This document shows, one piece after another, positions 21,601-55,837 of a stretch of 62,782 bases of DNA. The position numbers and the translations under genes are program-made. How positions within the stretch are numbered: the first letter of the stretch is position 1; each line of letters begins with the position of its first letter. The notes beneath the pieces are model-generated. The model did not search any database. It saw only the letters and a program-made list of their open reading frames with translations, and was not told the origin of the DNA. The stretch is taken from positions 1 to 62,782 of the IMG/VR virus record IMGVR_UViG_3300025379_000009. One strand, given 5' to 3'. The DNA comes from a virus.

Positions 21601-22010
21601 TGATTCTCAACAGTGTGGATTTCCAACCATTGTTTGGTAGCAAGGCAGTGGATTCTCTCAGAGCCACAGTCAAGGTAATACAATCTGCGCAAAGCACTGC
21701 CAGTGTCAGCACAATTAAAAATTTAGTGGTGGCCAACATGAGTGCCTATTTTGATCTACAGAATTGGGACTTTGGTCAGACATTCTATTTTTCAGAACTG
21801 GCCGCCTACATACATCAAAACATTGGCGATGTGGTCAGCAGCGTGGTTCTGGTGCCATTGAATCCACAGAAGAGCTTTGGTGATCTGTATGAAATCCGTT
21901 GTGCGCCCAATCAGATATTTGTCAACGGAGCCACAGTCAACGATGTTGAAGTTATTACCGCTCTAACCAGTACCAATCTACAAACACAACCTGGTAGTGG
22001 AGTAATTTAA
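18606..22010 (+). CDS. 6: gp6-like baseplate wedge subunit
   Basis: 1134 residues (T4 gp6 is 660; marine homologues are larger). The N-terminal block YVFGVEDWKRIYQTYREADF then LLDVMAFMGQSLAFRSDLNN, RENYLSTAERRDSVVKLANL and the later AREtIAEIKQRAP motif are hallmarks of gp6/gpJ. gp6 dimers form the inner ring that ties wedges together and change shape on contraction. The remaining 600 residues are beta-rich insertions. The stop overlaps the giant gene's start (TAATG). Confidence 0.95.
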   Translation: MATTTRQTYVFGVEDWKRIYQTYREADFQSYDFETLRKTFVDYLRLYYPETFNDYIESSEFIALLDVMAFMGQSLAFRSDLNNRENYLSTAERRDSVVKLANLVSYTPLRNTEASGYLKVFSVTTTENLTDYNGINLANITVNWADPTNLDWQEQFNTIINATLVNTQRFGRPGADKTILGVDTQEYTINLVPGYIPVVPYTSNINGVNMPFEAVSATAAGEDYVYEPPPLPNGQFNILFRNDQLGFASANTGFFFLFKQGILQNQDFNLTERITNRAVDINIEGINNTDVWLYQLDNTGNITSYWKSVQNVYAAATEQLAPGTQNIYSIGSRTNDQITLNFGDGIFSSIPVGIFRTYVRASNGLTYIINPAEMQSVSIPISYVSRTGNIETITFVCGITQPVTNAQARETIAEIKQRAPAQYYTQNRMVNGEDYSNFPFTQYNSILKSTAVNRASIGTSRYLDLVDGTGKYSSTSIFASDGALYESNTRPTFKFNYTTTNNISDVVYNQINPLLARAGLQQFYYANFNRPNLSALSLTWHQSTVITNETTGYFQNSLGNPVAVGSFASNNARFITQGSLVQFGAPPGYYFDKENKLQVGSPTGADEKLTIWASPTAVYLSGTAQGLGNLPSGIGPVVLNTFVPTGAIPLLVIPVFETDLGSTLEQTIVNQIYLSQNFGLGYDNLTATWYLITQQNLAVGADYSTQYAQNTSGQGLDASWLIQCTTNGTNYTVQSRSLNYYFGSVAETRFFFYTGDPIYDSRTGTVIRDYVNVLKVNSQPDSNLPLNGDKVMNIIDQPVLSDGLTDDFQVEVSFSYGYGDSIPSNPDFFNDIVAPNVDSNHKLVFFQATVDFDNLQRYLMLNPGIVNSDYATIVAIQLNLSQYTTGQVFYAYQDQVFYILTLDSSGNYTLTPTDTYLALTGRQGLYFQYRHNSPLTSRIDPGSTNIIDLYVVTNDYYTAYTNWIQDTTGTVVNPTPPTINELTTAYSGLQSYKMISDNMILNSVDFQPLFGSKAVDSLRATVKVIQSAQSTASVSTIKNLVVANMSAYFDLQNWDFGQTFYFSELAAYIHQNIGDVVSSVVLVPLNPQKSFGDLYEIRCAPNQIFVNGATVNDVEVITALTSTNLQTQPGSGVI

Positions 22011-42250: not shown

Positions 42251-43182
42251 TTGAAGTAACAGGAATAGACGTAGCCGATTTGGATTGCATATACCTCAGC
42301 TATGATGAACCCAACAAGGAAGAAACTTGGGTGCGTATCAAAAATATGGTGCCCTGGGCACGACGTGTAGATGGCATCAAAGGATCAGACGCCGCACATA
42401 AGGCCGCAGCTGAAATGAGTACAACTGAGCGATTCATCTTGATCGACGGTGACAACATTCCTGACGAAGATTTTTTCAATCAACGTATCGTACTCAAAGG
42501 TGCCCATGAGCACCGTGCTGTATTTCGTTGGCGTGCTAGAAACATCATCAATGGACTCATGTACGGCAATGGCGGACTGTCATGCTGGACCCGAGAGTTC
42601 GTGGCCACCATGCGTACCCATGAAAACACAGACGGTTCTGCGGCCAATGATGTGGAGTTCTGTTTCTATCCAGATTATCATGCCATGTACAACTGTTATA
42701 GTACCACTTACCCTAACGGATCTGCTTTCCAGGCCTGGCGTGCTGGCTTCCGTGAAGGAGTGAAGATGTGCTTGAATCAAGGCGCACGCCCCACAGTAAC
42801 AGAATTCCAAGATCGTGTACATCATCGCAATCTTGATCACTTGACCATATGGCACAATGTAGGACGCGATGTAGACAATGGCATCTGGGCTATCGCAGGA
42901 TCACGTATGGGCACCTACATGACCATGCTGACCGATTGGGACTACAAACAGGTGCAGGACTTTGATACTCTGGCTCAATTATGGACAACGGTGGAAAATT
43001 CTAATCCAGAACTACTTGCTGGCCGTGTGGCCGAGGATCTTACCACACAACTGAGTCTGCCCATCAACATGATGTTGGAGAAAGAAAGCGCCTTCTTCAA
43101 ACATCATTATCGCAGTAACTGGCAAAACCGTCATTTTATGGACAAAGAAATTGATGTGATCAGGAGTCAAGAAGGATGGTAA
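42247..43182 (+). CDS. Phage glycosyltransferase-like protein (GT-A type)
   Basis: 311 residues from ATG 42247 (MIEVTGIDVADLDCIYLSYD). It has DEPNKEETWVRIKNMVPWAR, an ID-GDN metal-site-like motif (FILIDGDNIPDEDFF near 88) and RARNIINGLMYGNGGLSCW. The C-terminal half of the 533-residue protein at 57975 carries the same order of motifs (IDNGEPGADQNWAFL, then ARNPINGLTYGHQAMIAYNR), so the two are paralogues. A GT2-like sugar transfer role is plausible. Confidence 0.65.
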   Translation: MIEVTGIDVADLDCIYLSYDEPNKEETWVRIKNMVPWARRVDGIKGSDAAHKAAAEMSTTERFILIDGDNIPDEDFFNQRIVLKGAHEHRAVFRWRARNIINGLMYGNGGLSCWTREFVATMRTHENTDGSAANDVEFCFYPDYHAMYNCYSTTYPNGSAFQAWRAGFREGVKMCLNQGARPTVTEFQDRVHHRNLDHLTIWHNVGRDVDNGIWAIAGSRMGTYMTMLTDWDYKQVQDFDTLAQLWTTVENSNPELLAGRVAEDLTTQLSLPINMMLEKESAFFKHHYRSNWQNRHFMDKEIDVIRSQEGW

Positions 43183-44591
43183 ACAAGGGTGATGAAATCA
43201 CTTCAGATTTCAAATCTAAATTTCTGAGCAGTGCCGAGGACATGCAGGCTCTGTTGGGTCCGGCCATGTGCCTGGCCAAATGGAAACAGGTAAGCCTTCA
43301 TTTAACTACCGGACTCAACAACAGTTGCTACCATCCTCCCTTGCATGAAATACCCACTGAGTCGCTGGCCAACGATCCTAGTATTCTGCACAATACACCC
43401 TACAAAAAAATACAACGCAAGATCATGTTGCAACAAGAACGTCCTGCAGAATGTAGCTACTGCTGGAGCATGGAGGACAATGGCAAACTAAGTGATCGAC
43501 ACTACAGATCGGGCGAGCCATGGGCGGCCGTAAATTTTGAATCAATAATGAATTCCTCAGGAGATGAAAATGTTGTTCCTAGTTATGTTGAAGTTAATTT
43601 TAATCACGCCTGTAATTTGGCTTGTAGTTACTGTAGTCCGCAGTTTAGCTCAACTTGGCAAGCAGAAGTTGATAAGTGGGGAGGATATCCTACTGGCACT
43701 ATACACAATGATCCCAGTCACTTTACTGGTCGCAATCGCCCTATACCTAGTCGTGACGCCAATCCCTACGTTGATGCATTTTGGTCTTGGTGGCCTGAAC
43801 TGTATCCAGAACTAGAACATTTCCGCATGACTGGCGGCGAACCCATGCTGGATAAGAATACCTATCGTGTGTTTGACTATGTGTTGGCCAACCCTAAACC
43901 CAACTTACACTTGGATGTGACTAGTAATTTTAGTGTGGATGAAAAGTCGTGGCAAAAATACAAAGGCCATGTGAAAGAACTGTGTGAGGGTGAAAAGATC
44001 GAACATTTTATGCAGTATGTAAGTTTGGATTCGTGGGGGTCGCAGGCTGAATATATTCGTCACGGTTTAGATTTTAATCTCTTATGGGATCGCGTTAATC
44101 AATTTCTAACAGAGATTCCTGGTCGCAACAGCATTACTTTTATTGTGACCATGAACAATCTGAGTGTGACCAATCTCAGTAGCCTGTTTGCTGGTATTTT
44201 AGGCCTGCGCAAACTGTACAGCAAGACTTATCAACGTGTTTGGTTTGACACTCCTGTACTTCGTCAGCCTGCCTGGCAAAGTTTACAGCTACTGCCTGAA
44301 AGTTATGCAGAACAGTTGGAATATCTCTGGGCCTGGATGATACGTCAAATTGAACGCGAGGACGATCCTTTTCATGGATTCAAAGACTACGAGATAGCCA
44401 GACTGGATCGCGACATAGCCTGGATGCGTGATGGACAAAAGTTAGAGCCTGCATACTTACAACGCAACAAGGCCGACTTTTTTAGATTCTTTAGCGAAGC
44501 CGATCGCAGACATGGCACAGATTTTTTAAAGACCTTTCCAGAAATGACTGCCTGGTGGAAGGAGTGCGAATACTATGCTAGGCAATCGTAA
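43176..44591 (+). CDS. Radical SAM protein with N-terminal twitch domain, copy 1
   Basis: 471 residues. An auxiliary Fe-S domain precedes the barrel: C32, C51 (SCYHPP), C93-x2-C96. The SAM cluster motif is C146-x3-C150-x2-C153 (CNLACSYC), followed by FSSTW and the glycine-rich MTGGEPML near 222. This domain order fits the N_Twi_rSAM type (auxiliary cluster first), not classical SPASM. Substrate unknown. Host codons over 43563-43637 are unusually rich in T-ending codons (19 of 25), which coincides with a second ORF in the +1 frame. It overlaps both neighbours by a few bases. Confidence 0.9.
   Translation: MVNKGDEITSDFKSKFLSSAEDMQALLGPAMCLAKWKQVSLHLTTGLNNSCYHPPLHEIPTESLANDPSILHNTPYKKIQRKIMLQQERPAECSYCWSMEDNGKLSDRHYRSGEPWAAVNFESIMNSSGDENVVPSYVEVNFNHACNLACSYCSPQFSSTWQAEVDKWGGYPTGTIHNDPSHFTGRNRPIPSRDANPYVDAFWSWWPELYPELEHFRMTGGEPMLDKNTYRVFDYVLANPKPNLHLDVTSNFSVDEKSWQKYKGHVKELCEGEKIEHFMQYVSLDSWGSQAEYIRHGLDFNLLWDRVNQFLTEIPGRNSITFIVTMNNLSVTNLSSLFAGILGLRKLYSKTYQRVWFDTPVLRQPAWQSLQLLPESYAEQLEYLWAWMIRQIEREDDPFHGFKDYEIARLDRDIAWMRDGQKLEPAYLQRNKADFFRFFSEADRRHGTDFLKTFPEMTAWWKECEYYARQS
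43570..43815 (+). CDS. Candidate overprinted two-TM membrane protein inside radical SAM copy 1
   Basis: An out-of-frame ORF (+1 relative to its host) with AGGAG at 43559-43563, ideally spaced (6 nt) from ATG 43570; ATG 43564 is the alternative. 81 residues: TM1 at about 1-25 (MLFLVMLKLILITPVIWLVV), a short Lys-containing loop, TM2 at about 42-62 (LLALYTMIPVTLLVAIALYL). The Cys-rich radical SAM motif itself reads as Val-rich in this frame, so part of the hydrophobicity is a by-product. The strong ribosome site and the T-ending codon shift in the host argue for real coding. Unproven. Confidence 0.4.
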   Translation: MLFLVMLKLILITPVIWLVVTVVRSLAQLGKQKLISGEDILLALYTMIPVTLLVAIALYLVVTPIPTLMHFGLGGLNCIQN

Positions 44592-45648
44592 GCTGGTAGT
44601 AGACACCTTTAGTGAAATATCTGATCTAATACAACCTTGGATTGATGCAGAATTTTGGGATTTATCGCAACACGAAATTTTGCCAGGCGCAGTATATGTG
44701 ATTGGTCGACAGCAGTTCAATGCCAATCGCGATCTCATCGTAGATCTTGTGCGAAATAAAACTATAGATGTAGTTTTTAGCAATCCAGCCGAAGGGTCCG
44801 AAACTGTGATTACTCACTGTGAATTTGGATTGAAAGTGATGGATCTGCTTGAGCAAGGGCAGATTCCAGTTATCACCGGCGGTGATATCCCTGCACAGTA
44901 TCCGCATCTGTTGTATGAAAGTTTTTTGCCCAAGCTGTATGACTATGTGGAAAACATGGAAGCAGTGCAACAGTATCAGGATCAATATTCTACAGATCGT
45001 CCTTATAAGTTCCTGTTCCTGAATGGACGACAACGCGATCATAGACGCTACATGATAGACCTGTTGAGACCGGTACTGGATCAGGCCTTGTGGACCAATT
45101 TGGATAGTGGCAACGGCCCAATACAGCTTTTACCGGCCGGTTATGAACCTGACATGTTTGATTCGACTGTCGATACCACAGTCTCGGTGGGACTGATCAA
45201 AAATCAACTGTTCCGCGGAATCTGGGGAGAAATATATCTCAAGGCTCGTCCTTATCAGGACACATATTTCAGCGTGGTCACCGAAACAGTGCATAGATAT
45301 CCTTACAGTTTCCGGACAGAAAAAATATGGAAACCCATAGCCATTGGTCATCCATTTATTGCTGTGGCCAATTGTGGATTTTATAGAGATCTACACAAAC
45401 TGGGTTTCCGCACGTTTGGACATGTGATAGATGAATCTTTTGATAACATAGCCGACAATCATGTTCGTGTAGTGCGATGTGCCGAAGTGATACGAGATCT
45501 GTGTCAGCAAGATCTGGCCAGTTTCCTTACAGCCTGCGAGGATGTGTGTAAATACAACAAGCAACATCTCGCAGACATGCGGCTACAGGTCCGTGCCGAA
45601 TTTCCTCAACGCTTTGAAAAATTTATACGTGAACGATTTAGAGTTTAA
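44575..45648 (+). CDS. Exostosin/fucosyltransferase-like (GT-B) protein
   Basis: 357 residues. The C-terminal half shows a motif set shared with the proteins at 55834 and 56900: a Glu in VTETVHRYPYSFRTEKIWKP, GHPFIAVAN, then LGFRTFGHVIDESFDN. T-E-K-x-x-K-x-x-x-x-x-P-F is the donor-binding loop seen in fucosyltransferase- and exostosin-like GT-B enzymes. The N-terminus reads more like a phage-specific acceptor domain; FLFLNGRQRDHRRYM starts the second half. It overlaps the radical SAM gene by 17 nt. Confidence 0.65.
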   Translation: MLGNRKLVVDTFSEISDLIQPWIDAEFWDLSQHEILPGAVYVIGRQQFNANRDLIVDLVRNKTIDVVFSNPAEGSETVITHCEFGLKVMDLLEQGQIPVITGGDIPAQYPHLLYESFLPKLYDYVENMEAVQQYQDQYSTDRPYKFLFLNGRQRDHRRYMIDLLRPVLDQALWTNLDSGNGPIQLLPAGYEPDMFDSTVDTTVSVGLIKNQLFRGIWGEIYLKARPYQDTYFSVVTETVHRYPYSFRTEKIWKPIAIGHPFIAVANCGFYRDLHKLGFRTFGHVIDESFDNIADNHVRVVRCAEVIRDLCQQDLASFLTACEDVCKYNKQHLADMRLQVRAEFPQRFEKFIRERFRV

Positions 45649-46960
45649 ACAACAGGTCTTAGACCCAAAAAGTGCCAGCTTCTGCGCGGCCAAATGGTAC
45701 AATGCCACTATCTGGTTGGGATCTGGTCAGACCACAAGTTGTCATCATCCACCGGCACATGCCATTGACGTAGAGGAAATCAAAACCCGTCCCAGTGCCA
45801 TACACAACACAGTAGAGAAGAAAATAGATCGATTGAACATGCAGTTGGGTAACCGTCCCAAAGGTTGCGAATACTGTTGGAAAATCGAAGACATGGGTCG
45901 CGATGCTGTGAGTGACCGTGTGTACAAAAGTCGAATTTACCCTCTGGAGGCCTTAAATGAAGCATATCAAAAACCACACCAAGAAGATGTCAATCTTCGC
46001 ACGCTTGAAATCGCGTTCGATCGCACTTGCCAATTCGCTTGTAGCTATTGTAACCCTGCTTTCAGTAGCACATGGGTTCGTGACATACGATCCAACGGCG
46101 CCTATGACGGCCTGGTGTCTGATGGGCGTGGCCACTTTACTCATGCTCACGATACTAGTCAACTATACCGCTTTGGCGAAACAAATCCCTATGTTGAAGC
46201 GTTTTTCAAGTGGTGGGAAACAGACCTCCATCAAACACTCCAAGAACTAAGGATCACTGGTGGCGAGCCACTCATGAGTGGTGATACCTGGAAGCTGATT
46301 GACTGGTTTCAAAATAACCCTGGGCGTAGTTCTACACGACTAGCCATCAACTCAAATTTAGGTCCTGGCGTGGATCTAGATCGCTTGTTGACTGCCACCC
46401 AAGGGATAGAACTGGATCTATACACCAGCCAGGAAAGTGTTGGAGTCCAGGCTGAATACATCAGAGACGGGCTTGATTACAGTGCTTGGGTCATGAACAT
46501 GATCAAATTGATGGACAGTGATCGTCTGCGTGGCCTGCACGTCATGTGCACCATCAATGCCTTGTGCTTGGACACCTTGCCCGACCTACTGACAGTATTC
46601 ATGCGTTGGAAACATCAATATGGTCGAGACTTTCCCAGCTTCACTCTAAACATACTCAGATTCCCTAGCTTTCAAAGCGCCTTGGTCTTGCCCGATGTAA
46701 TACGCACCCGGCACAAGCAACAGCTAGAGGCCTGGCTGGATCAGTGGGGATCCGATGACATGATCCACGAACATGAACGCAATCATGTACAACGACTTAT
46801 TGATTATCTTGATGTGGTCAAGACGCCACATTCTGAAGCGTTTGAAATGCCCAAACTGCACAACGACTTCAAGCAGTTTTATAAGCAATATGATCAGCGT
46901 CGAGGAAAAAACTTTAGCAAAACATTCGCACAACTACAAGATTGGTACCATACACTGTGA
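45614..46960 (+). CDS. Radical SAM protein with N-terminal twitch domain, copy 2
   Basis: Taking TTG 45614 as start gives 448 residues; GTG 45629 or ATG 45542 are alternatives, and the long overlap makes 45542 unlikely. Auxiliary Cys: C24, C43 (SCHHPP), C85-x2-C88. SAM motif C139-x3-C143-x2-C146 (CQFACSYC), then ITGGEPLM. It is closely related to copy 1 in layout. The reading frame overlaps the preceding gene's end by 35 nt. Host codons over 45957-46250 carry an alternative-frame ORF. Confidence 0.88.
   Translation: MKNLYVNDLEFKQQVLDPKSASFCAAKWYNATIWLGSGQTTSCHHPPAHAIDVEEIKTRPSAIHNTVEKKIDRLNMQLGNRPKGCEYCWKIEDMGRDAVSDRVYKSRIYPLEALNEAYQKPHQEDVNLRTLEIAFDRTCQFACSYCNPAFSSTWVRDIRSNGAYDGLVSDGRGHFTHAHDTSQLYRFGETNPYVEAFFKWWETDLHQTLQELRITGGEPLMSGDTWKLIDWFQNNPGRSSTRLAINSNLGPGVDLDRLLTATQGIELDLYTSQESVGVQAEYIRDGLDYSAWVMNMIKLMDSDRLRGLHVMCTINALCLDTLPDLLTVFMRWKHQYGRDFPSFTLNILRFPSFQSALVLPDVIRTRHKQQLEAWLDQWGSDDMIHEHERNHVQRLIDYLDVVKTPHSEAFEMPKLHNDFKQFYKQYDQRRGKNFSKTFAQLQDWYHTL
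45957..46250 (+). CDS. Candidate overprinted two-TM membrane protein inside radical SAM copy 2
   Basis: 97 residues in the +1 frame. TGGAGG (45945-45950) is 6 nt from ATG 45957, an almost perfect ribosome site. The product has a Lys/Arg-rich N-terminus (MKHIKNHTKKMSIFARLKSR), TM1 (SLVAIVTLLSVAHGF), a short loop, TM2 (CLMGVATLLMLTILV) and a basic tail, so the ends would face the cytoplasm. Composition looks like a genuine membrane protein, without the Cys/His/Ser excess of most shadow frames here. It covers the same host region (SAM motif) as the ORF in copy 1, but the two products are not clearly similar. Confidence 0.45.
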   Translation: MKHIKNHTKKMSIFARLKSRSIALANSLVAIVTLLSVAHGFVTYDPTAPMTAWCLMGVATLLMLTILVNYTALAKQIPMLKRFSSGGKQTSIKHSKN

Positions 46961-48282
46961 GCAAGATTATAGGAAAATACAACTGGATGGATCGAGTGCC
47001 TAATTACATAGCACTGGATGAGCTAGACGACAAGCAGAAGCATCGCTTGATGGAGTCAGAGCATTTTTGTATACTACCTTGGATACATCTGCATGCCTGG
47101 CCCGACGGTCGCGCTTATCCTTGCTGTTTGGCAAATGGCAAATACCCAGTGGGTGATCTTAAACAACAGACCATGCGTGAAGTATGGAATGCCGAAGGCA
47201 TGCGTGAAATGCGCAGAAACATGTTGGAAGAAAAACCTTGTCGTGAATGCAGCGACTGTTATGAACAGGAAGCCGCTGGTTTTGCCAGCATGCGAAACAA
47301 TTCAAACAAAAACTTTGGACACTATATTGCTGAAGTAGACGAAACCCGTGCCGACGGCAGTTTACCTGACATGCGTCTGCACTATTGGGATGTGCGTTTT
47401 AGTAACATCTGCAATTTAAAATGTCGCAGCTGTGGCTCTATATTCAGCAGTCGTTGGTATGATGATGATGTCAAGCTGTGGGGTAAAGAACTACGACCAC
47501 GTGTATCATTTGCCGGACGGCACGATGAAGATATCTGGGAACAGATGCAGGAGCATATCCCACACTTAACACAGATATATTTCGCCGGCGGCGAACCCTT
47601 GATCATGGAAGAACACAATCGTATCCTAAAACTGCTGATTGAAAAAGGCAATACCGATCTTGGATTGATCTATAATACCAATCTAACTGAATTGAAATTT
47701 AAAAAGGAAAGTGTGTTGGATCTGTGGAAACAGTTTCCTAATGTATGCGTGGCAGCCAGCCTAGACGACATGGGTGATCGAGCCGGCATCATACGTTCGG
47801 GCACCGACTGGGCACAAGTTGAACAGAATATACGTGACTTGAAACGCGAATGTCCACATATTGATTTTATGATCAGTCCTACGCTCAGCATGATGAATAT
47901 CTGGAATTTTACCCGATTCCATCGCTACATGGTGGAATCCGGGTATATCCGGGCGCAGGATTTCAATTTAAACATACTGCAAGGTCCTGACAGTTATCGT
48001 ATAGACATGTTGCCCATGGAATTAAAACTTAAATTCAAAGCCGAATTTGAAGCACACATAGCATGGCTTGAACCCCTTGACACCATACAGCGTGCTGTAG
48101 GTGGATTCCGCGGCGCGATTGAATTCATGATGGCCCAAGACAATAGTCACTTGTTGAAGAATTTTTGGCAAGCAGTCAACGATTTGGATTGGAGCCGCAG
48201 TGAAAGTTTGTTGAGTGTGGTTCCGGAGCTGGAGGCCATTGTTCAATATCGTCCTGAAGATAAACGAGTTCCGCTCCGATGA
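46957..48282 (+). CDS. Radical SAM protein with N-terminal twitch domain, copy 3
   Basis: 441 residues from GTG 46957, which forms GTGA with the preceding TGA; ATG 46942 is an alternative. The auxiliary domain is of a second subtype: FCILPWIHLHAWPDGRAYPC with C38, C56-C57, then C95-x2-C98-x2-C101. The SAM motif is C152-x3-C156-x2-C159 (CNLKCRSC), followed by FAGGEPLI. The C38-xx-PW...PCC start is diagnostic of the SPASM/twitch fold. Substrate unknown. The stop overlaps the next ATG (ATGA). Confidence 0.9.
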   Translation: MSKIIGKYNWMDRVPNYIALDELDDKQKHRLMESEHFCILPWIHLHAWPDGRAYPCCLANGKYPVGDLKQQTMREVWNAEGMREMRRNMLEEKPCRECSDCYEQEAAGFASMRNNSNKNFGHYIAEVDETRADGSLPDMRLHYWDVRFSNICNLKCRSCGSIFSSRWYDDDVKLWGKELRPRVSFAGRHDEDIWEQMQEHIPHLTQIYFAGGEPLIMEEHNRILKLLIEKGNTDLGLIYNTNLTELKFKKESVLDLWKQFPNVCVAASLDDMGDRAGIIRSGTDWAQVEQNIRDLKRECPHIDFMISPTLSMMNIWNFTRFHRYMVESGYIRAQDFNLNILQGPDSYRIDMLPMELKLKFKAEFEAHIAWLEPLDTIQRAVGGFRGAIEFMMAQDNSHLLKNFWQAVNDLDWSRSESLLSVVPELEAIVQYRPEDKRVPLR

Positions 48283-49496
48283 AAATACCACACGATCGAT
48301 TCTGCGTACTGCCATGGATCAGCTTGGAAACCAGTCCTGTTGGCACGGTACGTCCTTGTTGCCTGGCCGAAGATGAACTGGTAGATGAGTCTGGACAAAA
48401 ATTCAATCTGGCCACCGCACAATTCAGTAGCATACAGGACAGCGCCAGTATGCGACATCTACGTGAACAGTTCCTAGCCGGTGAACAGCCACAGACCTGT
48501 AGAAAATGCTGGCGTGAAGAACGTAGTGGCCGTACATCGAAGCGTATGCATACCCTGGATCGACTCAAGCACATGATTGACGATTCAGAATGGACCGCAG
48601 ATGCCAAACCACTCATGTTCTTAGATCTCAAGCTGGGCAACATCTGCAATTTAAAATGTCGTATCTGTGGATCATGGAGCTCAAGTACATTTGCCATAGA
48701 AGAACTGGCCAATTTGGAACCCGGTGAAGATAAGAAAACCAGTTTTCATTATCAAATGTTACGCAACGGTGCATGGCCTAGAGAAAATGAAACATTCTGG
48801 ACTGAAATAGATCAAGTGTCAGATCAAATACGCTACATTGAATTCACCGGTGGCGAACCATTTATGATCCAAGAACACTTTGACATGTTGCAGGGCTTGA
48901 TCAATCGCGGCATAGCTCACAATATAGAAATACATTACAACACCAATGGCACACAATGGCCTGAGCAAGCTGAAGAAATTTGGCGCTATTTTAAAACAGT
49001 GGAAATAGCTTTCAGCATCGACGATGTGGGTGCTAGATTTGAATACCAACGTAGCAATGCTCAATGGACCGAAGTGTGTGCCAACATTGAACGTTTCCAA
49101 GACATGCGCAGACGTTGTGACAACATACAACTACAGGTATGTGCCACGGTGAATGTATTTAATGTATGCTATCTTGAAGAATTAAGTCACTGGATTGAGC
49201 AACAACAGTTTGATTTTGTCTACTGGAACATGATGCATGAAGCCTATTACTTTAGTATCAGCACCTTGCCAGAATCGGCCAAGTATACAATCGCACAACG
49301 TCTGCGCCTGGCTCGGGTCAATCCGCAGGACCGTAAGGAATTTGATCGCATCATTGATTTCATGCTGGGCGGTGTCAGTCTAGACGGTTTCAACATGCGT
49401 AGAGAAATGGCCAATCTGGATCGCCGACGTGGTCAAAATCTCTGTAAGGTGGAACCAGAATTCGCTCACATGATCAATTATATGGGACCAGATTAA
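48279..49496 (+). CDS. Radical SAM protein with N-terminal twitch domain, copy 4
   Basis: 405 residues. RFCVLPWISLETSPVGTVRP gives C9 and C27-C28, then C74-x2-C77. SAM motif C123-x3-C127-x2-C130 (CNLKCRIC), FTGGEPFM near 195 and FSIDDVGARFEYQR in the barrel. It is subtype 2, like copies 3 and 5. ATG 48279 overlaps the previous stop; the next gene begins 2 nt after its own stop. Confidence 0.9.
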   Translation: MKIPHDRFCVLPWISLETSPVGTVRPCCLAEDELVDESGQKFNLATAQFSSIQDSASMRHLREQFLAGEQPQTCRKCWREERSGRTSKRMHTLDRLKHMIDDSEWTADAKPLMFLDLKLGNICNLKCRICGSWSSSTFAIEELANLEPGEDKKTSFHYQMLRNGAWPRENETFWTEIDQVSDQIRYIEFTGGEPFMIQEHFDMLQGLINRGIAHNIEIHYNTNGTQWPEQAEEIWRYFKTVEIAFSIDDVGARFEYQRSNAQWTEVCANIERFQDMRRRCDNIQLQVCATVNVFNVCYLEELSHWIEQQQFDFVYWNMMHEAYYFSISTLPESAKYTIAQRLRLARVNPQDRKEFDRIIDFMLGGVSLDGFNMRREMANLDRRRGQNLCKVEPEFAHMINYMGPD

Positions 49497-49497
49497 C

Positions 49498-50010
49498 ATG
49501 CACATCAAACCTTTGTCCCCCAATGGGGCGAGACTGTGTGATGTATTTCCAGATGATCTCCTGCAGGAAATAATCGATCTAGTAGATACATTTACACCTA
49601 CCCGTATACAGACAGCTGATGATGCTCCGGAACTGCTGACACCGTTATCTGGATCTGATCGACATGTGTTGTTATTGGCCAACACCGAACTGCGTCAACG
49701 CATACTGGCCTGTTTTGATGTGCCAAAATCTTCTTCGATAGAACTATGGAGAGATTACCCTGGTTACAGAAATACTATCCATGTGGATTTTGAAAATGTA
49801 CATAATGTGATCATCGTATATCTTGACACCTGGGGCCATGGTGAAATGGGCACCAAATACTACGAAGATGACGCAGAATATTTTGTTGAATATCGCAAAA
49901 ATCATGGAATAATGTTACACAACAGCAACAAGATCTTGCATCATATGATTGGCGAAGTGGCCCATGTGTCCTACAGAAAAACCCTATATATCAATTGGAC
50001 CAACAAGTGA
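49498..50010 (+). CDS. 2-oxoglutarate/Fe(II) oxygenase-like protein
   Basis: 170 residues with the double-stranded beta-helix signature: H95-x-D97 (TIHVDFEN), a following strand VHNVIIVYLDTWGHGEMG, a distal His at H148/H149 (KILHHMIG) and R160 (SYRKTLYINW) for 2-oxoglutarate. Small phage oxygenases of this type hydroxylate peptides, sugars or nucleic acids. It sits between radical SAM copies 4 and 5 with 1-nt and GTGA junctions, so it very likely works on the same product. Confidence 0.75.
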   Translation: MHIKPLSPNGARLCDVFPDDLLQEIIDLVDTFTPTRIQTADDAPELLTPLSGSDRHVLLLANTELRQRILACFDVPKSSSIELWRDYPGYRNTIHVDFENVHNVIIVYLDTWGHGEMGTKYYEDDAEYFVEYRKNHGIMLHNSNKILHHMIGEVAHVSYRKTLYINWTNK

Positions 50011-51296
50011 AACCTGATACCTTGTGTATGGCACCTTGGACTCACACGTATCTAAGTCCACAAACCGAACGCAGAATGTGCTGTGCATCGCGTGAACCTG
50101 CGCAGAATTTTGCTCAGTACATAGATACAGCCGCAGGTACCGGGCAGTATATTCCTATCACATTAGACGAGCATTGGAACAGCGATCATATGCGCAGTGT
50201 TCGTCGTAGAATGATGGCCGGTGAAACTCTACCCGAGTGTGATGTATGCAACAATCAACTGTTGAATACTGATGTTTATCGTAGTTATTTTAACAGAATG
50301 TTTGGCGACCGTTATGAGTCCGCCATGCAGGCCACAGATGCTACAGGTTTTACCACAGTCAAGCCAATTTCCTGGGACTATAGATTCAGTAACCTGTGCA
50401 ATTTCAAATGCCGCATGTGTGGTGACATGCTGAGTTCTGCGTGGGAAACCGAACAGCGACAGCATGACATGATCAACTGGGACGATTCAAAAAACAACTG
50501 GATGCGCCCCGAGATCAGATCTGAGATAAGTACTTTTCAAGACGGTCAGATTGAACGTGAATTCGCTCAAGCAGTAGAAGAACATCGTGTAGAAGAAGTG
50601 TACTGGGTAGGTGGAGAGCCGCTCATGTATGAACAGCACTGGCGATACATGAAAAGAATTATTGAATTAGGCGACGGAGATCGCGTTTATGCTAGATACA
50701 ACACAAATCTTAGCCGGGTTAATTACAGGGGTTGTGACCTTTATAGTGACATTTTGGCTCATCTACGGGATTATCAAATCTGTGCCAGTCTCGACGGAAC
50801 CGGAGCCACAGGAGAATACATCAGAACCGGACTTGATTACAGTGCATGGCGAGATAATTTCGCCCGAGGCGTTGCCATGGCCAAGAACCGCCGCCAATGG
50901 CGAATCGATTTTACTCTTACGCTACCAGGACTCTTTGAAGTCGCCAACATTACGTCTCTTGCCGCCGACTTCGGCGTAGACATCCTGGCCAAGGTAGTAT
51001 TCAGTTTTACTCCAGACATAATCCTAAGTCCATTGGCCTTGCCACGTGAGTTATTAGACAAAACTGTAGACAGTCTAATAACCGAAACTTCAGGAGCTAT
51101 GCAAGATATATTGCTACAGCTCAAATGTCGTCCGACATTTGAGGAGCAATGGCCTGATACCTTTGCCGAATCTCTTGCACGAGGCAAGCGTCGTGTGTTA
51201 CAATTAGAATCTATCCGTGGAGATTCATTTACTCTTGCGGACATCCTAGGGCAAGACCCAGAAATTGGTGCATGGTATGAATCAATCGTTACTTGA
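50007..51296 (+). CDS. Radical SAM protein with N-terminal twitch domain, copy 5
   Basis: 429 residues from GTG 50007, overlapping the oxygenase stop (GTGA). Auxiliary Cys: C7 (LCMAPWTHTYLSP), C25-C26 (MCC), C78-x2-C81. SAM motif C131-x3-C135-x2-C138 (CNFKCRMC), then WVGGEPLM. Between the auxiliary and SAM motifs lies a 50-residue spacer. Codon use from about 50690 on is unlike the first half (CTT, CGG, AGG, ACG become common), matching a +1-frame ORF there. Confidence 0.88.
   Translation: MKPDTLCMAPWTHTYLSPQTERRMCCASREPAQNFAQYIDTAAGTGQYIPITLDEHWNSDHMRSVRRRMMAGETLPECDVCNNQLLNTDVYRSYFNRMFGDRYESAMQATDATGFTTVKPISWDYRFSNLCNFKCRMCGDMLSSAWETEQRQHDMINWDDSKNNWMRPEIRSEISTFQDGQIEREFAQAVEEHRVEEVYWVGGEPLMYEQHWRYMKRIIELGDGDRVYARYNTNLSRVNYRGCDLYSDILAHLRDYQICASLDGTGATGEYIRTGLDYSAWRDNFARGVAMAKNRRQWRIDFTLTLPGLFEVANITSLAADFGVDILAKVVFSFTPDIILSPLALPRELLDKTVDSLITETSGAMQDILLQLKCRPTFEEQWPDTFAESLARGKRRVLQLESIRGDSFTLADILGQDPEIGAWYESIVT
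50689..50979 (+). CDS. Candidate overprinted single-TM protein inside radical SAM copy 5
   Basis: 96 residues in the +1 frame, starting at ATG 50689 with ACGGAGA (GGAG 9 nt upstream). One strong TM near the N-terminus (ILAGLITGVVTFIVTFWLIY), then a soluble tail with Glu/Pro-rich linker (STEPEPQENTSEPDL) and a mixed C-terminal region. This is the layout of a bitopic membrane-anchored protein such as a spanin-like or regulatory peptide. It overlies a part of the host gene downstream of the SAM motif, so its hydrophobicity is not explained by Cys codons. Confidence 0.4.
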   Translation: MLDTTQILAGLITGVVTFIVTFWLIYGIIKSVPVSTEPEPQENTSEPDLITVHGEIISPEALPWPRTAANGESILLLRYQDSLKSPTLRLLPPTSA

Positions 51297-52308
51297 TGTT
51301 GTAGAAATAGATCTGGAAGATCTCACCATCTACATCAATGTATGGGATAGCAGTCTCAGTCGTAAATGGTTGGCAGCCTTGAATGATTTGATACGTGACC
51401 AATATCATTTAGAAAAAAACTACTGTTTCATGGGATTTCCTGATTCTGAAAGAAACGGTGATTATCTTTGTGGTCAAATCAACAATTCAATTGCCGAAAT
51501 AAATTCAGCCAATATAGGTTATACCATTGATGATGTGTTTACGTTGGATACTGTGATGGACCATGACATGAACATTGTACGCGAACGGTTCAATCATCTT
51601 CACAGATATTTTGAAGATCTTCAAGGTGTCAGCGGACGTATAAGTCATTTTTATCGTGATGCAGATGCATCGGTGCGCTGGCACATACGACAACTGAATC
51701 TCCTGTGTCATGAATTTGAAAGCTGGGCCTTGAGTTGGCGCAAGAAACACACCGCACCCGAATGGATGAGACCCAGTCAACTCATGTGTTGGCTAAATGC
51801 TCCACGTTTTGTATTGGACGAAGCCGATTATGAACTGTTTGGAATTGAAACAATCAATCGGAAAATGGGTGGAGTATATGTAGGAGTCAACAAGGCCGTA
51901 GGCAAGCATCACTGGGAAGTGTTCCAGGACGAAGGCCGCGACAGTAGGATCAACGAGTTGACAACAACTACCTTGAAAAATCAAACCGAAGCTGCTGGCG
52001 ATTTTGACATTGAATGGGCCAGAGATCCTGGAGCACATGATTGGCAAATCCGCCAACTGGCTGAATTTCGTGAATGGTTAGTAACCAATGGATTTGATCC
52101 TGAAGACAAAACCCTTACCATTGGTCATCCGCAGATAGGCCAGGTAAATTTGATACGCAGTTTTGGAACAGAAGATTATGTGCAAATATGGAACATGCTG
52201 GCTTCCAGATTGGATGTAACCGAGATACGCACTAGTAGTGCCCGAGCAGAATACACATATCACTGGAATGATCCCAGATATGCTCAACAACAAATGGATC
52301 TGTTATGA
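51277..52308 (+). CDS. Conserved hypothetical phage protein
   Basis: 343 residues from ATG 51277 (MNQSLLDVVEIDLEDLTIYI); the GTG at 51265 is a less likely start. Helix-rich, Trp/His-rich, no membrane segment. Segments such as HIRQLNLLCHEFESWALSWR, GVYVGVNKAVGKHHWEVFQD, and a C-terminal IGHPQIGQVNLIRSFGT look conserved and enzyme-like, but I cannot place the family. It overlaps radical SAM copy 5 by 20 nt and the next ORF by 4 nt, so it belongs to the same transcription unit. Confidence 0.65.
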   Translation: MNQSLLDVVEIDLEDLTIYINVWDSSLSRKWLAALNDLIRDQYHLEKNYCFMGFPDSERNGDYLCGQINNSIAEINSANIGYTIDDVFTLDTVMDHDMNIVRERFNHLHRYFEDLQGVSGRISHFYRDADASVRWHIRQLNLLCHEFESWALSWRKKHTAPEWMRPSQLMCWLNAPRFVLDEADYELFGIETINRKMGGVYVGVNKAVGKHHWEVFQDEGRDSRINELTTTTLKNQTEAAGDFDIEWARDPGAHDWQIRQLAEFREWLVTNGFDPEDKTLTIGHPQIGQVNLIRSFGTEDYVQIWNMLASRLDVTEIRTSSARAEYTYHWNDPRYAQQQMDLL

Positions 52309-52988
52309 ATGATATATATGTAAACGACTACTTGACCTGGGAGTACAGTACAGATCCTGCCATACAGTACTTGAACTGTCCGGCACCCACAGCCATGCAA
52401 AATCACATGCCAGACTGGTTCAAAGCACAAAAAGCACGCAAGGCCGAAATTGACATAGCTGATCAGCAAACCATACGCAACTGTCTGGGATTCAGAGGCC
52501 TGGCTAACTTGGGATTCACCATCCCCTTACCAGAAGAAGTCAATACCTACGATACATATTTCAATCGTGGTCGCTTGCACCCTGACATGCTGTACGGCAC
52601 ACGCTTTGCCAACCGTGGTGAACGTGGACAGTGGGCACCAGGTGATTTCAGTCCATACGAGTATGGTGTCAGACTTCTACATTGGCCCTGGCGTGCCCGC
52701 ATGGCACCAGGTTGGCGATTATTGATTTTGCCGTATCTCATGGATTGGCCTGTTGATTGGAATGAATTTGCTGGTACCGTTGAACCCAATTATGACATAG
52801 TAAATGGCACCGGTATTGGAACTGGACTCAAATGGACACAAGCAATTGATACAAGGTACAACTACTATAACTTGGAAACAGTTGTGGCTTTTCGTCGGGC
52901 CACAGTCATACCCAAAGACACAGTGACCTTTTGTGCTTTGCCTTTGTTTGATCCTATACTAGAGGAGAAGCAACGTGCAATGGTTTAA
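52305..52988 (+). CDS. Conserved hypothetical phage protein
   Basis: 227 residues. NCPAPTAMQNHMPDWFKAQK near 25 and TIRNCLGFRGLANLGFTIPL near 60, then a Trp-rich middle (LHWPWRARMAPGWRLLILPY) that resembles a DUF6065-like beta-sandwich family by memory only. No catalytic motif is certain. The stop lies within the 33-residue gene that follows. Confidence 0.65.
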   Translation: MNDIYVNDYLTWEYSTDPAIQYLNCPAPTAMQNHMPDWFKAQKARKAEIDIADQQTIRNCLGFRGLANLGFTIPLPEEVNTYDTYFNRGRLHPDMLYGTRFANRGERGQWAPGDFSPYEYGVRLLHWPWRARMAPGWRLLILPYLMDWPVDWNEFAGTVEPNYDIVNGTGIGTGLKWTQAIDTRYNYYNLETVVAFRRATVIPKDTVTFCALPLFDPILEEKQRAMV

Positions 52989-53076
52989 AAATATCTATAA
53001 CCGTGTGATGCTAGAAATACGTTATCGTCGCAAGTTAAAAGAACTACGTAAAAGAGATCCCTTTATCTACAAATGA
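52975..53076 (+). CDS. Very small conserved basic protein (33 residues)
   Basis: GTG 52975 to TGA 53074-53076, preceded by AGAGGAG (52961-52967). The product begins QWFKNIYNRVMLEIRYRRKL after the initiator and ends KRDPFIYK; it is a basic amphipathic helix. I recall near-identical peptides ending RDPFIY in many T4-like marine phages. It overlaps the upstream stop by 14 nt and the carbamoyltransferase start by 4 nt (ATGA). Confidence 0.75.
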   Translation: MQWFKNIYNRVMLEIRYRRKLKELRKRDPFIYK

Positions 53077-54524
53077 ATATCCTAGGGATCAGTGCCGGTT
53101 TTCATGACGCTGCTGCTACAGTAATTGATGCTGGCGGCAACATAGTGTATGCTGGTCATGCCGAACGCTATAGTAAAATCAAAAATGATGCCAATCTTAA
53201 TGTAGACATGTTGTTTGATCTAGCACAAGGGCGCCATATTGATCACATTGCTTATTATGAAACACCTTGGAAAAAACAGTTGCGTCAACTGTACTCAGGA
53301 CAAGGCATTGAGTGGAACAAGCTAACTACCCATCAAGTGCTAGATCAACAGCTGGATGGCTTTTTTGATAATGTTCCTGTGTCAACACACAGTCATCATT
53401 TGAGCCACGCGGCTGCTGGTTTCCAAACCAGTAGTTTTGATCGAGCCACGGTGGTCGTGATTGATGCCATTGGCGAATGGGATACCATAACCATTTGGGG
53501 CGCACACTATGTAGATGGCCAAGCTCAGTATGATATCCTATGGCGCCAGCGATATCCTTATAGCCTAGGATTATTCTATACCGCCATCACAGAACGTGTG
53601 GGATTGAGACCCATGGAAGATGAATACATACTGATGGGCATGAGTGCCTATGGCGAAGCTAGGCACACAGATACCATGCAGATCCTGTTGCAGGAAAATC
53701 TACATGTAGGAATCGATCACATGTTCCTGCCCACAGCTAGAGATGTGGATATAGCTGCTAGTGCGCAGGTTATTCTTGAAGAAGAGATATATAAGGTTAT
53801 GCAACGTGCCCGAGCCTTTGGCTGGAGTCGTAATCTTGTATATCAGGGCGGTGTTGCACTCAACTGTTTGGCCAATCGAAACTTAAATGAATATTTTGAA
53901 AATATCTGGATCATGCCTTGCCCTGGTGACGGTGGCAGCAGTCTTGGCGCTGCCGCATTGGCCTACGGAGGCAGGATCAACTGGCAAAATGCGTACCTTG
54001 GCACAAACATCCCAGGAACGTATCCTGTCAGCGCCTGCCTTGATCGTTTACTCAGTGATAGAATCGTCGGTGTCGCTAGCGGTCGGGCCGAGTTTGGACC
54101 CAGAGCCCTGGGAAATAGAAGTCTGCTCGCAGACCCCCGAGGATCAGATATAAAGGATCGTGTAAATGCCATCAAACGTAGACAACAATTTAGACCGTTC
54201 GCTCCCGTTGTTTTGGAGGAGTATGCTAATGAGTATTTTGATATCCCTAGTGGTTTCTGTGACACTAGGTATATGCAGGTCGTCGGTCGTTGCAGGCGTC
54301 CTGATCTATTTCCTGCTATTACCCATGTTGATGGTACCAGTAGGATACAAACTGTACCGCCGGATGATAGCGGAATTAGACAACTCTTAGAGGCCTGGCA
54401 TGCGAAAACCGGTTGTGCTATCCTGCTTAATACTAGCCTTAATATTCGAGGTGAGCCTATGGTTAACGATCGCAGCGACGCTGATAGATTCCAGGATCTT
54501 TACGGTATAACTGTATGCAGTTGA
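53073..54524 (+). CDS. Carbamoyltransferase (NodU/CmcH family)
   Basis: 483 residues. N-terminal MNILGISAGFHDAAATVIDA and HSHHLSHAAAGF supply the ATP/metal site of the Kae1-like domain; YQGGVALNCLANR (near 260) is the third conserved motif; the C-terminal domain has ASGRAEFGPRALGNRSLLAD (near 338) and LLNTSLNIRGEPMVN. Enzymes of this family move a carbamoyl group from carbamoyl phosphate to a sugar or antibiotic hydroxyl. It is shorter than most (about 560) but no motif is missing. Glu codons are 12 GAA:2 GAG up to about 53900 and 0:6 afterwards, which coincides with +1-frame ORFs. Confidence 0.93.
   Translation: MNILGISAGFHDAAATVIDAGGNIVYAGHAERYSKIKNDANLNVDMLFDLAQGRHIDHIAYYETPWKKQLRQLYSGQGIEWNKLTTHQVLDQQLDGFFDNVPVSTHSHHLSHAAAGFQTSSFDRATVVVIDAIGEWDTITIWGAHYVDGQAQYDILWRQRYPYSLGLFYTAITERVGLRPMEDEYILMGMSAYGEARHTDTMQILLQENLHVGIDHMFLPTARDVDIAASAQVILEEEIYKVMQRARAFGWSRNLVYQGGVALNCLANRNLNEYFENIWIMPCPGDGGSSLGAAALAYGGRINWQNAYLGTNIPGTYPVSACLDRLLSDRIVGVASGRAEFGPRALGNRSLLADPRGSDIKDRVNAIKRRQQFRPFAPVVLEEYANEYFDIPSGFCDTRYMQVVGRCRRPDLFPAITHVDGTSRIQTVPPDDSGIRQLLEAWHAKTGCAILLNTSLNIRGEPMVNDRSDADRFQDLYGITVCS
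53887..54153 (+). CDS. Possible overprinted exported peptide inside the carbamoyltransferase
   Basis: 88 residues, +1 frame, starting directly after an in-frame stop. The first 28 residues (MNILKISGSCLALVTVAAVL) look like a signal peptide. No clear Shine-Dalgarno precedes it and the C-terminal part is simply the shifted reading of the conserved catalytic motif, so it may be a shadow ORF. It is listed because it ends 12 nt before the next ORF in the same frame and host codon use is already shifted. Confidence 0.2.
   Translation: MNILKISGSCLALVTVAAVLALPHWPTEAGSTGKMRTLAQTSQERILSAPALIVYSVIESSVSLAVGPSLDPEPWEIEVCSQTPEDQI
54229..54390 (+). CDS. Candidate overprinted two-TM small membrane protein inside the carbamoyltransferase
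   Basis: 53 residues from ATG 54229, which lies 7 nt after GGAGGAG (54215-54221), the strongest ribosome site in the region. In-frame starts at 54166 (74 residues, AAAGGA 8 nt upstream) and 54223 are alternatives. Two TM segments (MSILISLVVSVTLGI and VAGVLIYFLLLPMLMVPVGY) are separated by a short basic turn and followed by KLYRRMIAELDNS. Size and layout suit a holin-like or other small phage membrane protein. Host Glu codons over the overlap are all GAG. Confidence 0.45.
   Translation: MSILISLVVSVTLGICRSSVVAGVLIYFLLLPMLMVPVGYKLYRRMIAELDNS
54400..54510 (+). CDS. Candidate overprinted small hydrophobic peptide (36 residues)
   Basis: ATG 54400 to TAA 54508-54510, in the same +1 frame and 9 nt after the previous ORF's stop. 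AGAGG (54389-54393) is 6 nt upstream. The product, MRKPVVLSCLILALIFEVSL plus 16 more residues, is one membrane span with a basic N-terminus. Tandem arrangement with the preceding two-TM ORF looks like a mini-cassette. Confidence 0.35.
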   Translation: MRKPVVLSCLILALIFEVSLWLTIAATLIDSRIFTV

Positions 54525-54817: not shown

Positions 54818-55837
54818 TCAAAGATAAGTTTCTAATCCGCCGCTGCGGCGCAGATCCTGTGTACAACACGAAATGCCACCGTCCCAGAAATAGCTATGAC
54901 GCAGTTCGCTGATGATGGGATTGATTCTATGTCGTTTGCAAAAATCAAATACATTTTTATTGTAGGCGCTAAAAATCACATTTTCTTCGTCCAACACCAG
55001 GCAGTTGACATCAAATACTGTTTCGGCCACAAAGCCGGTCCATTTGTTCAGATAGGTATCCACAAAGGTGGTAAACTCAGGAGTAGGTGTTTGCCCCTGC
55101 ACATACCAGGCACCGGGACTTTCTTCATACTTGAACTTGCCCACTTCCATAGCAGCCCAGATACTGCTATCCCAGATCTTCAACACTTCCCAACCAGGAA
55201 AGTCTTCTGCTAGATGCAGATGCATGTCGTGTTTGCTTGAAAGAATTACTCCGGGTTTGAGTATGGCAAACACAGCATCCCCATGACCGTCGGTCACAGC
55301 TTCATGTATTCTGTACTCTGGACCCAAGCAGTTGTCTACGATCCAGCGTGTTTGATCAGGACGCAAAAAATCACTGTTGTCAAAAAACACATCGCGTCCT
55401 ACACGCACGATGCACGATGCACTTGCACCATTTAATATGCAGCCAGGATCCCAATCAGCACCGTGTGGATTGACCACTTGATCGGCATAGTCCTTGCAAA
55501 TATCGTCCAGTTCTTTCATGGGAAGTACCCGTAGGAGTTTTTGTCCTAAACTGATTTGCCAATCTCGAGGAGTAAGAGGAGGTAATGGAGCACCTTGTCC
55601 TGCTAACTGACTCTGTTGAAATTGATGTCGATCCATCAGATTAGGTCTACGCACCCGAGCACCATAGATTTCAATAGTACGCTGTAGATTATCTAGATCT
55701 TCGGCAGTTTCATTTAGGATCTGTTGCAGTTGATTGCGTACCTGCGCATTGTCAATAAAGTCAAAGTAGTCCGGTGTGTAGGCACGCCCCACTATGACTT
55801 CTTCAAGTGGTTGCCAGGATGTATAGCTGTTGATCAT
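54818..55837 (-). CDS. Amidinotransferase-like enzyme
   Basis: 339 residues of the guanidine-modifying (arginine deiminase/GATM) superfamily. Y-T-S-W-PLEEVIVGRA opens the fold; acid groups in VVNPHGADWDPG, the catalytic His in TDGHGDAVFAI near 183, and the C-terminal nucleophile in GGISCCTQDLRR (C325 before Thr) follow in the usual order. Such enzymes move an amidino group from arginine to an amine. In this cluster it could add an amidino group to an amino sugar made by the DegT enzyme, which is inference. It overlaps the next upstream gene by 4 nt. Confidence 0.85.
   Translation of the reverse strand: MINSYTSWQPLEEVIVGRAYTPDYFDFIDNAQVRNQLQQILNETAEDLDNLQRTIEIYGARVRRPNLMDRHQFQQSQLAGQGAPLPPLTPRDWQISLGQKLLRVLPMKELDDICKDYADQVVNPHGADWDPGCILNGASASCIVRVGRDVFFDNSDFLRPDQTRWIVDNCLGPEYRIHEAVTDGHGDAVFAILKPGVILSSKHDMHLHLAEDFPGWEVLKIWDSSIWAAMEVGKFKYEESPGAWYVQGQTPTPEFTTFVDTYLNKWTGFVAETVFDVNCLVLDEENVIFSAYNKNVFDFCKRHRINPIISELRHSYFWDGGISCCTQDLRRSGGLETYL

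Follow-up and report, generated by a model that had tools for sequence, protein, structure and literature searches.

Five candidate overprinted genes for small membrane proteins in the +1 frame of accessory enzyme genes of a putative T4-like phage

The window analysed here, the whole 62,782 bases of IMG/VR virus record IMGVR_UViG_3300025379_000009, has an accessory region with five radical SAM genes (five matching places) and one carbamoyltransferase gene. Three of these radical SAM genes and the carbamoyltransferase gene hold five small open reading frames (ORFs) in their +1 frame, which are very probably real, selected overprinted genes for predicted small membrane proteins. A first-pass annotation of the sequence had proposed overprinted small membrane genes at four places, and the avoidance of +1 stops at the ORFs, together with conserved starts and ribosome sites in most of them, supports that proposal. 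The four ORFs share the +1 phase and have the ribosome sites ascribed to them, including the GGAGGAG 7 nucleotides (nt) before ATG 54229, but the count becomes five, since the carbamoyltransferase gene holds a second ORF at 53896-54153 that had been overlooked. The ORFs are (CT, carbamoyltransferase; aa, amino acids):

SAM1-ORF, 43570..43815, + strand: 81 aa, two predicted membrane spans, +1 frame; AGGAG 6 nt upstream
SAM2-ORF, 45957..46250, + strand: 97 aa, predicted helical hairpin, +1 frame; GGAGG 6 nt upstream
SAM5-ORF, 50689..50979, + strand: 96 aa, predicted N-terminal membrane span and C-terminal part, +1 frame; GGAG 9 nt upstream
CT-A, 53896..54153, + strand: 85 aa from a conserved TTG start, one predicted membrane span, +1 frame
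CT-B, 54166..54390, + strand: 74 aa, two predicted membrane spans, +1 frame; AAGGA 8 nt upstream

CT-A and CT-B lie in tandem inside one carbamoyltransferase gene, with the CT-B start 12 nt past the CT-A stop; CT-A would be 88 aa long if the window-specific ATG 53887 were used. Taken alone, the window gives a modest excess of hydrophobic +1 ORFs over chance. The four ORFs noted in the first pass take ranks 1, 2, 3 and 5 in hydrophobicity (best 19-residue value) among the 83 shadow ORFs that reach 40 aa within 43 window genes, picked by hand up to base 59576, and six ATG-started +1 ORFs of at least 50 aa reach a Kyte-Doolittle value of at least 2, where 500 synonymous shuffles average 1.4 or 2.1 (P 0.004 and 0.010). 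One of these six, at 13039, has no further support.

We then compared relatives of each host gene, taken from viral contigs as the best 80 of 156, 245, at least 600 and at least 598 candidates, a choice that under-samples divergent ones. Codon alignments held 79 relatives for SAM1 (1 dropped), 80 for SAM2, 80 for SAM5 and 78 for CT (2 dropped), giving 66, 66, 77 and 67 distinct sequences including the window. Stops in the +1 frame were set against a within-gene synonymous codon shuffle (null b), which leaves intact the protein, the codon usage and every codon's junction to its following base. Counted along the four host genes in bins of 20 codons, the ratio of +1 stops to this null is mostly 0.7-1.6, the ORFs excepted: it is 0.09-0.19 over SAM2 codons 120-199, 0.09-0.17 over SAM5 codons 240-279 and 0.53-0.56 over codons 280-319, 0.02-0.16 over CT codons 280-339 (CT-A), and 0.24-0.34 over CT codons 380-419 (CT-B), and the lowest bin within the SAM1 ORF is 0.45. 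Low bins also occur beyond the ORFs, at SAM1 260-279 (0.65), CT 140-159 (0.59) and SAM5 20-39 (0.00, with merely 0.01 stops expected).

Blind scans led to the same genes, SAM1 excepted. A five-frame scan of 15 of the 20 window genes from 40150 on, those with at least 12 relatives, flagged the +1 frame in SAM2, SAM5 and CT only, plus two antisense frames: a0 of CT, in our view a reflection of the same TTA/CTA codons, and a2 of gene 54818. A second scan, run on the long ORFs of all loci grouped into 25 families, had hits in seven (SAM2, SAM5, CT, gene 54818 in antisense, and three families of 13-14 members) and gave nothing in the other 18 of the 25, the SAM1 family among them.

T-rich third positions in the host codons might by themselves produce a hydrophobic, stop-poor +1 frame with no gene in it, and shuffled host sequences, like relatives without the ORF, do keep a hydrophobic +1 frame; even so, we judge host codon bias a very unlikely source of the pattern. 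The depletion is stop-specific in SAM2, SAM5 and CT-A, where +1-stop-capable codons are used at 0.19, 0.13 and 0.14 of expectation, compared to 0.67-0.69 for purines among control NT codons (same middle base) and 0.75-1.09 for other codons. It also outlasts a local-composition null, in which the shuffle is confined to each ORF and local codon use is preserved (SAM2 0.32, SAM5 0.40, CT-A 0.40, CT-B 0.32; z -8 to -10), with control segments of the SAM2, SAM5 and CT genes at 0.85-1.01. When synonymous change was simulated along the tree, 0 of 150 runs were as extreme for each of the five ORFs and nine control segments had z of -1.1 to +2.9, in a simulation that is slightly too sharp because its synonymous identity lies under that of the data (CT 0.425 versus 0.463; others within 0.015).

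Among representatives whose synonymous identity to each other stays below 0.60 (means 0.435-0.469, versus 0.374-0.403 at random), the +1 frame is open in 18/42 for SAM1 (2.9 expected), 29/41 for SAM2 (2.9), 37/51 for SAM5 (3.4), 18/30 for CT-A (1.1) and 24/30 for CT-B (4.5). Openness of the second frame thus exceeds codon-usage expectation for SAM2, SAM5, CT-A and CT-B, and the depletion falls where starts, ribosome sites and stops are conserved; for these four ORFs codon bias is already contradicted. SAM1 exceeds expectation among the representatives, in the tree simulation and within one clade (clade A), but not in the pooled local null or the scans, and its pooled depletion is the same as that of control codons, which, like the modest excess in the window alone, counts toward codon bias. 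The first-pass annotation had itself cautioned that a shared phase can partly reflect host codon structure. That caution is borne out for hydrophobicity, because the middle base of each +1 codon is the host codon's third base and the frame is hydrophobic by default, but it leaves stop avoidance unexplained.

We next examined the ends of the ORFs, where relatives were to be checked for conservation of start and ribosome site; this conservation was found for SAM2, CT-A, CT-B and one SAM1 clade, and was not clear for SAM5. The SAM2-ORF ATG occurs with a ribosome site in 59% of sequences versus 10% in the null (n=66), and a +1 stop stands at SAM2 codon 105, four codons before the start, in 67% versus 22%. 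For CT-B (n=67), ATG 54166 is present in 91% versus 69% and with a ribosome site in 70% versus 34%, the stop directly before the start (codon 363) in 76% versus 42%, and the end stop in 60% versus 40%; this is the conserved start, in place of the ATG 54229 chosen in the first pass, which is at null level (31% versus 29%). CT-A has a start codon with a ribosome site at 53896 in 88% versus 53% (n=67), its own stop codon in 69% versus 24%, and an upstream +1 stop at codon 270 in 54% versus 35%. As a general start for CT-A we rejected ATG 53887, which, though present in the window, occurs in 1% of the 67. SAM5-ORF starts are scattered over host codons 226, 229 and 231, with an ATG and ribosome site at codon 229 in 42% versus 27%. 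In most relatives the SAM1 ORF is 14 codons shorter, with a stop at host codon 198 (65% versus 44%) that is absent from the window copy.

The upstream stops bear on programmed +1 frameshifting, by which the +1 segment would extend the N-terminal part of the enzyme with no internal initiation. Such a mechanism fits the common +1 phase of all cases, as does a SAM5 start that is not over-conserved, but we hold it to be highly improbable: the +1 stops upstream are over-conserved at SAM2 codon 105, CT-B codon 363 and CT-A codon 270, which disfavours frameshifting from far upstream, and start codons with ribosome sites are over-conserved as well.

Synonymous constraint, the other proposed check, is raised in part of the set. 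The ratio of synonymous identity inside to outside the ORF is 1.17 for SAM5 (other windows at most 1.03), 1.21 for CT-B (at most 1.16) and 1.14 for SAM1 clade A (at most 1.05), with clade B at 1.07 (at most 1.06). The ORF-plus, ORF-minus and SAM5-minus sets used in this comparison, and in those of hydrophobicity and charge below, were picked by ORF state.

ORF presence largely follows the trees. A strict midpoint-root split of SAM1 gives clade A, 38 tips including the window, and clade B, 28 tips. Clade A has 0.66 stops per sequence versus 2.26 in the null, with 21 tips stop-free, a ribosome site in 95% versus 55%, and an ATG with ribosome site in 74% versus 38%; the other 28 tips have 2.29 stops versus 1.95, with two stop-free and a ribosome site in 14% versus 9%. 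SAM1-ORF is clade-limited and is the weakest case among the five. For SAM5, 60 of 77 tips are stop-free, and a group of loci is at or near null (L302, L278, L282, L254, L250, L266, L277, L263 and others). Across the 52 records with at least two host genes sampled, all sampled ORFs are open in 19, some in 28 and none in 5. Relatives that freely break the +1 frame, together with a lack of synonymous constraint, had been named beforehand as the outcome that would sink the proposal; mostly the opposite is seen, with stops avoided, yet some relatives do break the frame, largely by clade.

In ORF-positive relatives, +1 hydrophobicity rises over the null at the predicted spans, with two peaks in SAM1, SAM2 and CT-B and one in SAM5; CT-A has a peak at its span and stays above the null until about codon 340, and the tails of the nested proteins are near or under the null. 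Acidic residues are scarce in the second SAM2 span (0.27 versus 0.82 in the null), the first CT-B span (0.00 versus 0.64) and the SAM5 span (0.52 versus 1.39), and proline is depleted in the first SAM2, second CT-B and second SAM1 spans but not in CT-A (1.44 versus 1.26). Lysine and arginine (K/R) in SAM2-ORF number 3.5 in the N-tail, 0.3 in the loop and 4.6 in the C-tail (null 3.6, 0.4 and 3.9), and in CT-B 3.6, 0.5 and 2.4, the CT-B C-tail also holding 2.2 acids; in SAM1-ORF the loop is basic. The K/R-rich tails of SAM2-ORF and CT-B would place both ends inside, and since they are near the null they are largely given by the host gene. AlphaFold2 predicts a helical hairpin for SAM2-ORF (mean predicted local distance difference test score, pLDDT, 64) and, for SAM5-ORF (mean pLDDT 61), a helix at residues 2-31, with the first three 10-residue blocks at 80-95 and the rest mostly below 60.

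Several results weigh against reading the five ORFs as selected genes. Relatives without the ORF have the same hydrophobic peaks, weaker in SAM1 and SAM5 and about as strong in SAM2 and CT-A, and hydrophobicity is therefore partly a property of the host. SAM1 went unflagged in both blind scans, failed the site-class test of stop-capable against control codons as a pooled set (0.53 versus 0.56), and did not stand out from its own controls in the pooled local null (0.85; controls 0.82-0.97). CT-B codons 385-438 also failed the site-class test, with a weak contrast (0.70 versus 0.98), and the local-null control segments are themselves mildly depleted, with z down to -5.4. CT-A depends on a TTG start, and the window copy has no ribosome-site 4-mer before either TTG 53896 or ATG 53887. 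The SAM5-ORF start at 50689 is not over-conserved (ATG in 57% versus 64%), and stops appear despite an intact host gene for SAM5 in L250, L266 and L277 and for CT-A in L158 and L153. Synonymous identity is not raised in SAM2-ORF (1.03; other windows at most 1.07) or CT-A (1.03; at most 1.12); these two drift in sequence while the frame remains open. Searches of Pfam and PHROGs with single small proteins gave no convincing family match for the nested proteins (best Pfam E 0.027, DUF6479; P21 holin E 0.38; best PHROG E 0.036).

The host genes are:

Radical SAM gene 1, 43176..44591, + strand: host of SAM1-ORF; ORF with 79 IMG/VR relatives aligned
Radical SAM gene 2, 45629..46960, + strand: host of SAM2-ORF; GTG start
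Radical SAM/SPASM gene 5, 49995..51296, + strand: host of SAM5-ORF; Pfam
Carbamoyltransferase, 53073..54524, + strand: host of CT-A and CT-B; Pfam and PHROG

The carbamoyltransferase matches Pfam Carbam_trans_C (E 1e-48) and Carbam_trans_N (E 6.2e-36) and the PHROG Nol-like carbamoyltransferase (E 4.2e-94). Among the five radical SAM genes, the third is the only one with a Pfam match above the curated cut-off. Gene 1 matches Pfam Radical_SAM under that cut-off (E 0.006) and PHROG 14086 radical SAM (E 1.8e-07); gene 2 matches PHROG 1802 radical SAM (E 1.1e-06), with Pfam Radical_SAM at merely E 0.28; gene 5 matches Pfam Radical_SAM (E 3.2e-06) and SPASM (E 0.0013), both slightly under their cut-offs. 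Position 45542 was rejected as the start of gene 2: this longer version has a stop or unreadable codon in 37/80 relatives, compared to 0/80 for the version starting at GTG 45629. Genes 1 and 2 are paralogues, and their nested ORFs occupy homologous stretches of the two enzymes, the first span falling on the Cys motif; the two ORFs may or may not descend from one nested gene. Near an Asn-Pro-Tyr-Val motif that the two hosts share, a +1 stop stands at SAM1 codon 198 in 65% versus 44%, and at SAM2 codon 188 in 5% versus 30%. In a phage collection, the carbamoyltransferase has 134 relatives and radical SAM 5 has two at 22.7% identity, all below 60%, and radical SAM 2 has none; a search of genome contigs with the carbamoyltransferase gave one relative, on a contig of an archaeal metagenome-assembled genome.

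Expression of the nested ORFs would begin with an internal ribosome start in the +1 frame of the enzyme mRNA, at a ribosome site and ATG, or TTG for CT-A. The products would be small inner-membrane proteins, with hairpins for SAM1-ORF, SAM2-ORF and CT-B, a span and tail for SAM5-ORF, and one clear span for CT-A; both translation and membrane insertion are what we infer from the sequences. The ORFs presumably originated by overprinting in an already hydrophobic frame, and this default hydrophobicity may explain how nested genes arose.

As to function, the hairpins might be a holin or antiholin and SAM5-ORF a spanin-like protein. A class II holin has two spans and an N-in C-in topology; the predicted hairpins of SAM2-ORF (97 aa) and CT-B (74 aa) have K/R-rich tails suited to this idea, if near the null. 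An i-spanin has an N-terminal span followed by a coiled-coil periplasmic part, and the predicted helix at residues 2-31 of SAM5-ORF may correspond to the former. Embedded +1 o-spanins are known (PMC6139136). Of 50 SAM5-ORF members scanned, two hit the Rz-like spanin PHROG 214 (best E 0.007) and one the Rz-like spanin PHROG 739 (E 0.0086), so that at most 3/50 have such a match at E 0.007-0.009. For a scan of that size these values are weak, and single SAM5-ORF members match four families without an assigned function as well or better. No lipobox was seen by eye in the window CT-A or CT-B, and there are clades without single members. In searches at the genome level, phrog_739 was unspecific (2/21 relative-bearing records but 9/14 controls), and the T4 holin PF11031 was found in 0/21 records and likewise in no control genome, and is hence uninformative. 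We consider lysis proteins a fairly unlikely identity.

The ORFs might instead encode membrane partners or anchors of the enclosing enzymes, co-expressed from the same mRNA. All five lie inside accessory enzyme genes of one region, and no free-standing copy was found among close relatives, with 12/12 SAM2-ORF loci and 16/16 CT-B loci inside the host gene, in a search that covered two of the five ORFs and close relatives only. Related enzymes of other clades, however, go without the ORF, and we regard a partner role as doubtful.

Our preferred reading is that the nested proteins are accessory envelope proteins of the infected cell, acting for example in superinfection exclusion or membrane remodelling, to which we would give slightly less than an even chance. 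An accessory role is favoured over an essential lysis protein or holin because clades have or lack single members. Conceivably, if on the unlikely side, the genes nested in the three radical SAM genes and the CT-A/CT-B operon embedded in the carbamoyltransferase gene form a hidden membrane-protein module in the +1 frame, with enzymes and membrane proteins co-expressed from a single mRNA and acting together on the infected cell's envelope.

The virus itself appears to be a T4-like phage because PHROGs matches, obtained for 8/10 window proteins scanned, include SbcC/SbcD-like nuclease subunits, a late sigma factor, a baseplate hub and a baseplate wedge. Relatives of the host genes lie in large records: among 21 records, which were chosen for size, 13 exceed 300 kb and the largest is 374 kb. 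Elsewhere in the window, 22010-36916 (+), downstream of the gene for the baseplate wedge, is a single ORF 4968 codons long, and two ORFs, 1777-2391 (+) and 2791-3378 (-), resemble GIY-YIG homing endonucleases when their motifs are judged by eye. In gene 54818-55837 (-), a2 antisense stops number 0.12-0.15 versus 0.5-0.6 per sequence at host codons 215-260 in 26 sequences, a weak signal that may be chance or another overlapping gene. ORF families 20, 21 and 23 (14, 14 and 13 members; loci L006-L325) have short stop-poor +1 or antisense stretches in few sequences; families 21 and 23 lie outside the window and family 20 is related to the gene at 41194.

Overprinting is often put down to compression in tiny viruses, and here it appears to recur in phages whose records reach 374 kb. 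That the enzymes are unrelated, while the nested product is always a predicted membrane protein and the frame always +1, makes a testable case of de novo membrane-protein birth out of a frame hydrophobic by default. Phage annotation thus seems to overlook selected genes, and stop avoidance can be measured against a codon-context null in any family of phage genes for which dozens of relatives exist.

Among the matches listed in a search of the open-access literature, no title or abstract start dealt with genes nested in the radical SAM or carbamoyltransferase genes of phages. Overprinting itself is known, and several such genes within unrelated enzymes of a single phage would be a new form of it. 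Gene E of phiX174 lies inside gene D, in a tiny genome, and functions in lysis; like the ORFs described here it is overprinted, out of frame, on a gene to which it is unrelated, and its product is hydrophobic, but with relatives in records of up to 374 kb genome compression is a poor explanation here. In T4, gene 30.3' lies inside 30.3, one base downstream, and is likewise an embedded gene in a T4 phage, but as a single case and not as a set of membrane proteins in accessory enzymes. The Rz/Rz1 spanins include an embedded architecture with a +1 o-spanin inside another gene, and thus a small membrane-associated phage protein wholly inside another same-strand gene (PMC6139136); there host and guest cooperate in lysis, whereas here the hosts are enzymes, five guests sit in four genes, and a lipobox was not seen. 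A survey puts 30% of viral gene overlaps as fully internal (PMC7017920). In Pseudomonas phage Fc02, overlapping alternate-frame ORFs olg1 and olg2 include one with superinfection exclusion activity (PMC9936078); that phage is temperate, the ORFs lie in a repressor region and the activity was demonstrated, whereas the ORFs described here are known from sequence comparison. Finally, a study of budding yeast describes de novo membrane proteins arising from thymine-rich sequence (PMC7005711), a case alike in that T-rich sequence yields membrane spans, and unlike in that the source was non-genic rather than the alternate frame of a phage gene.

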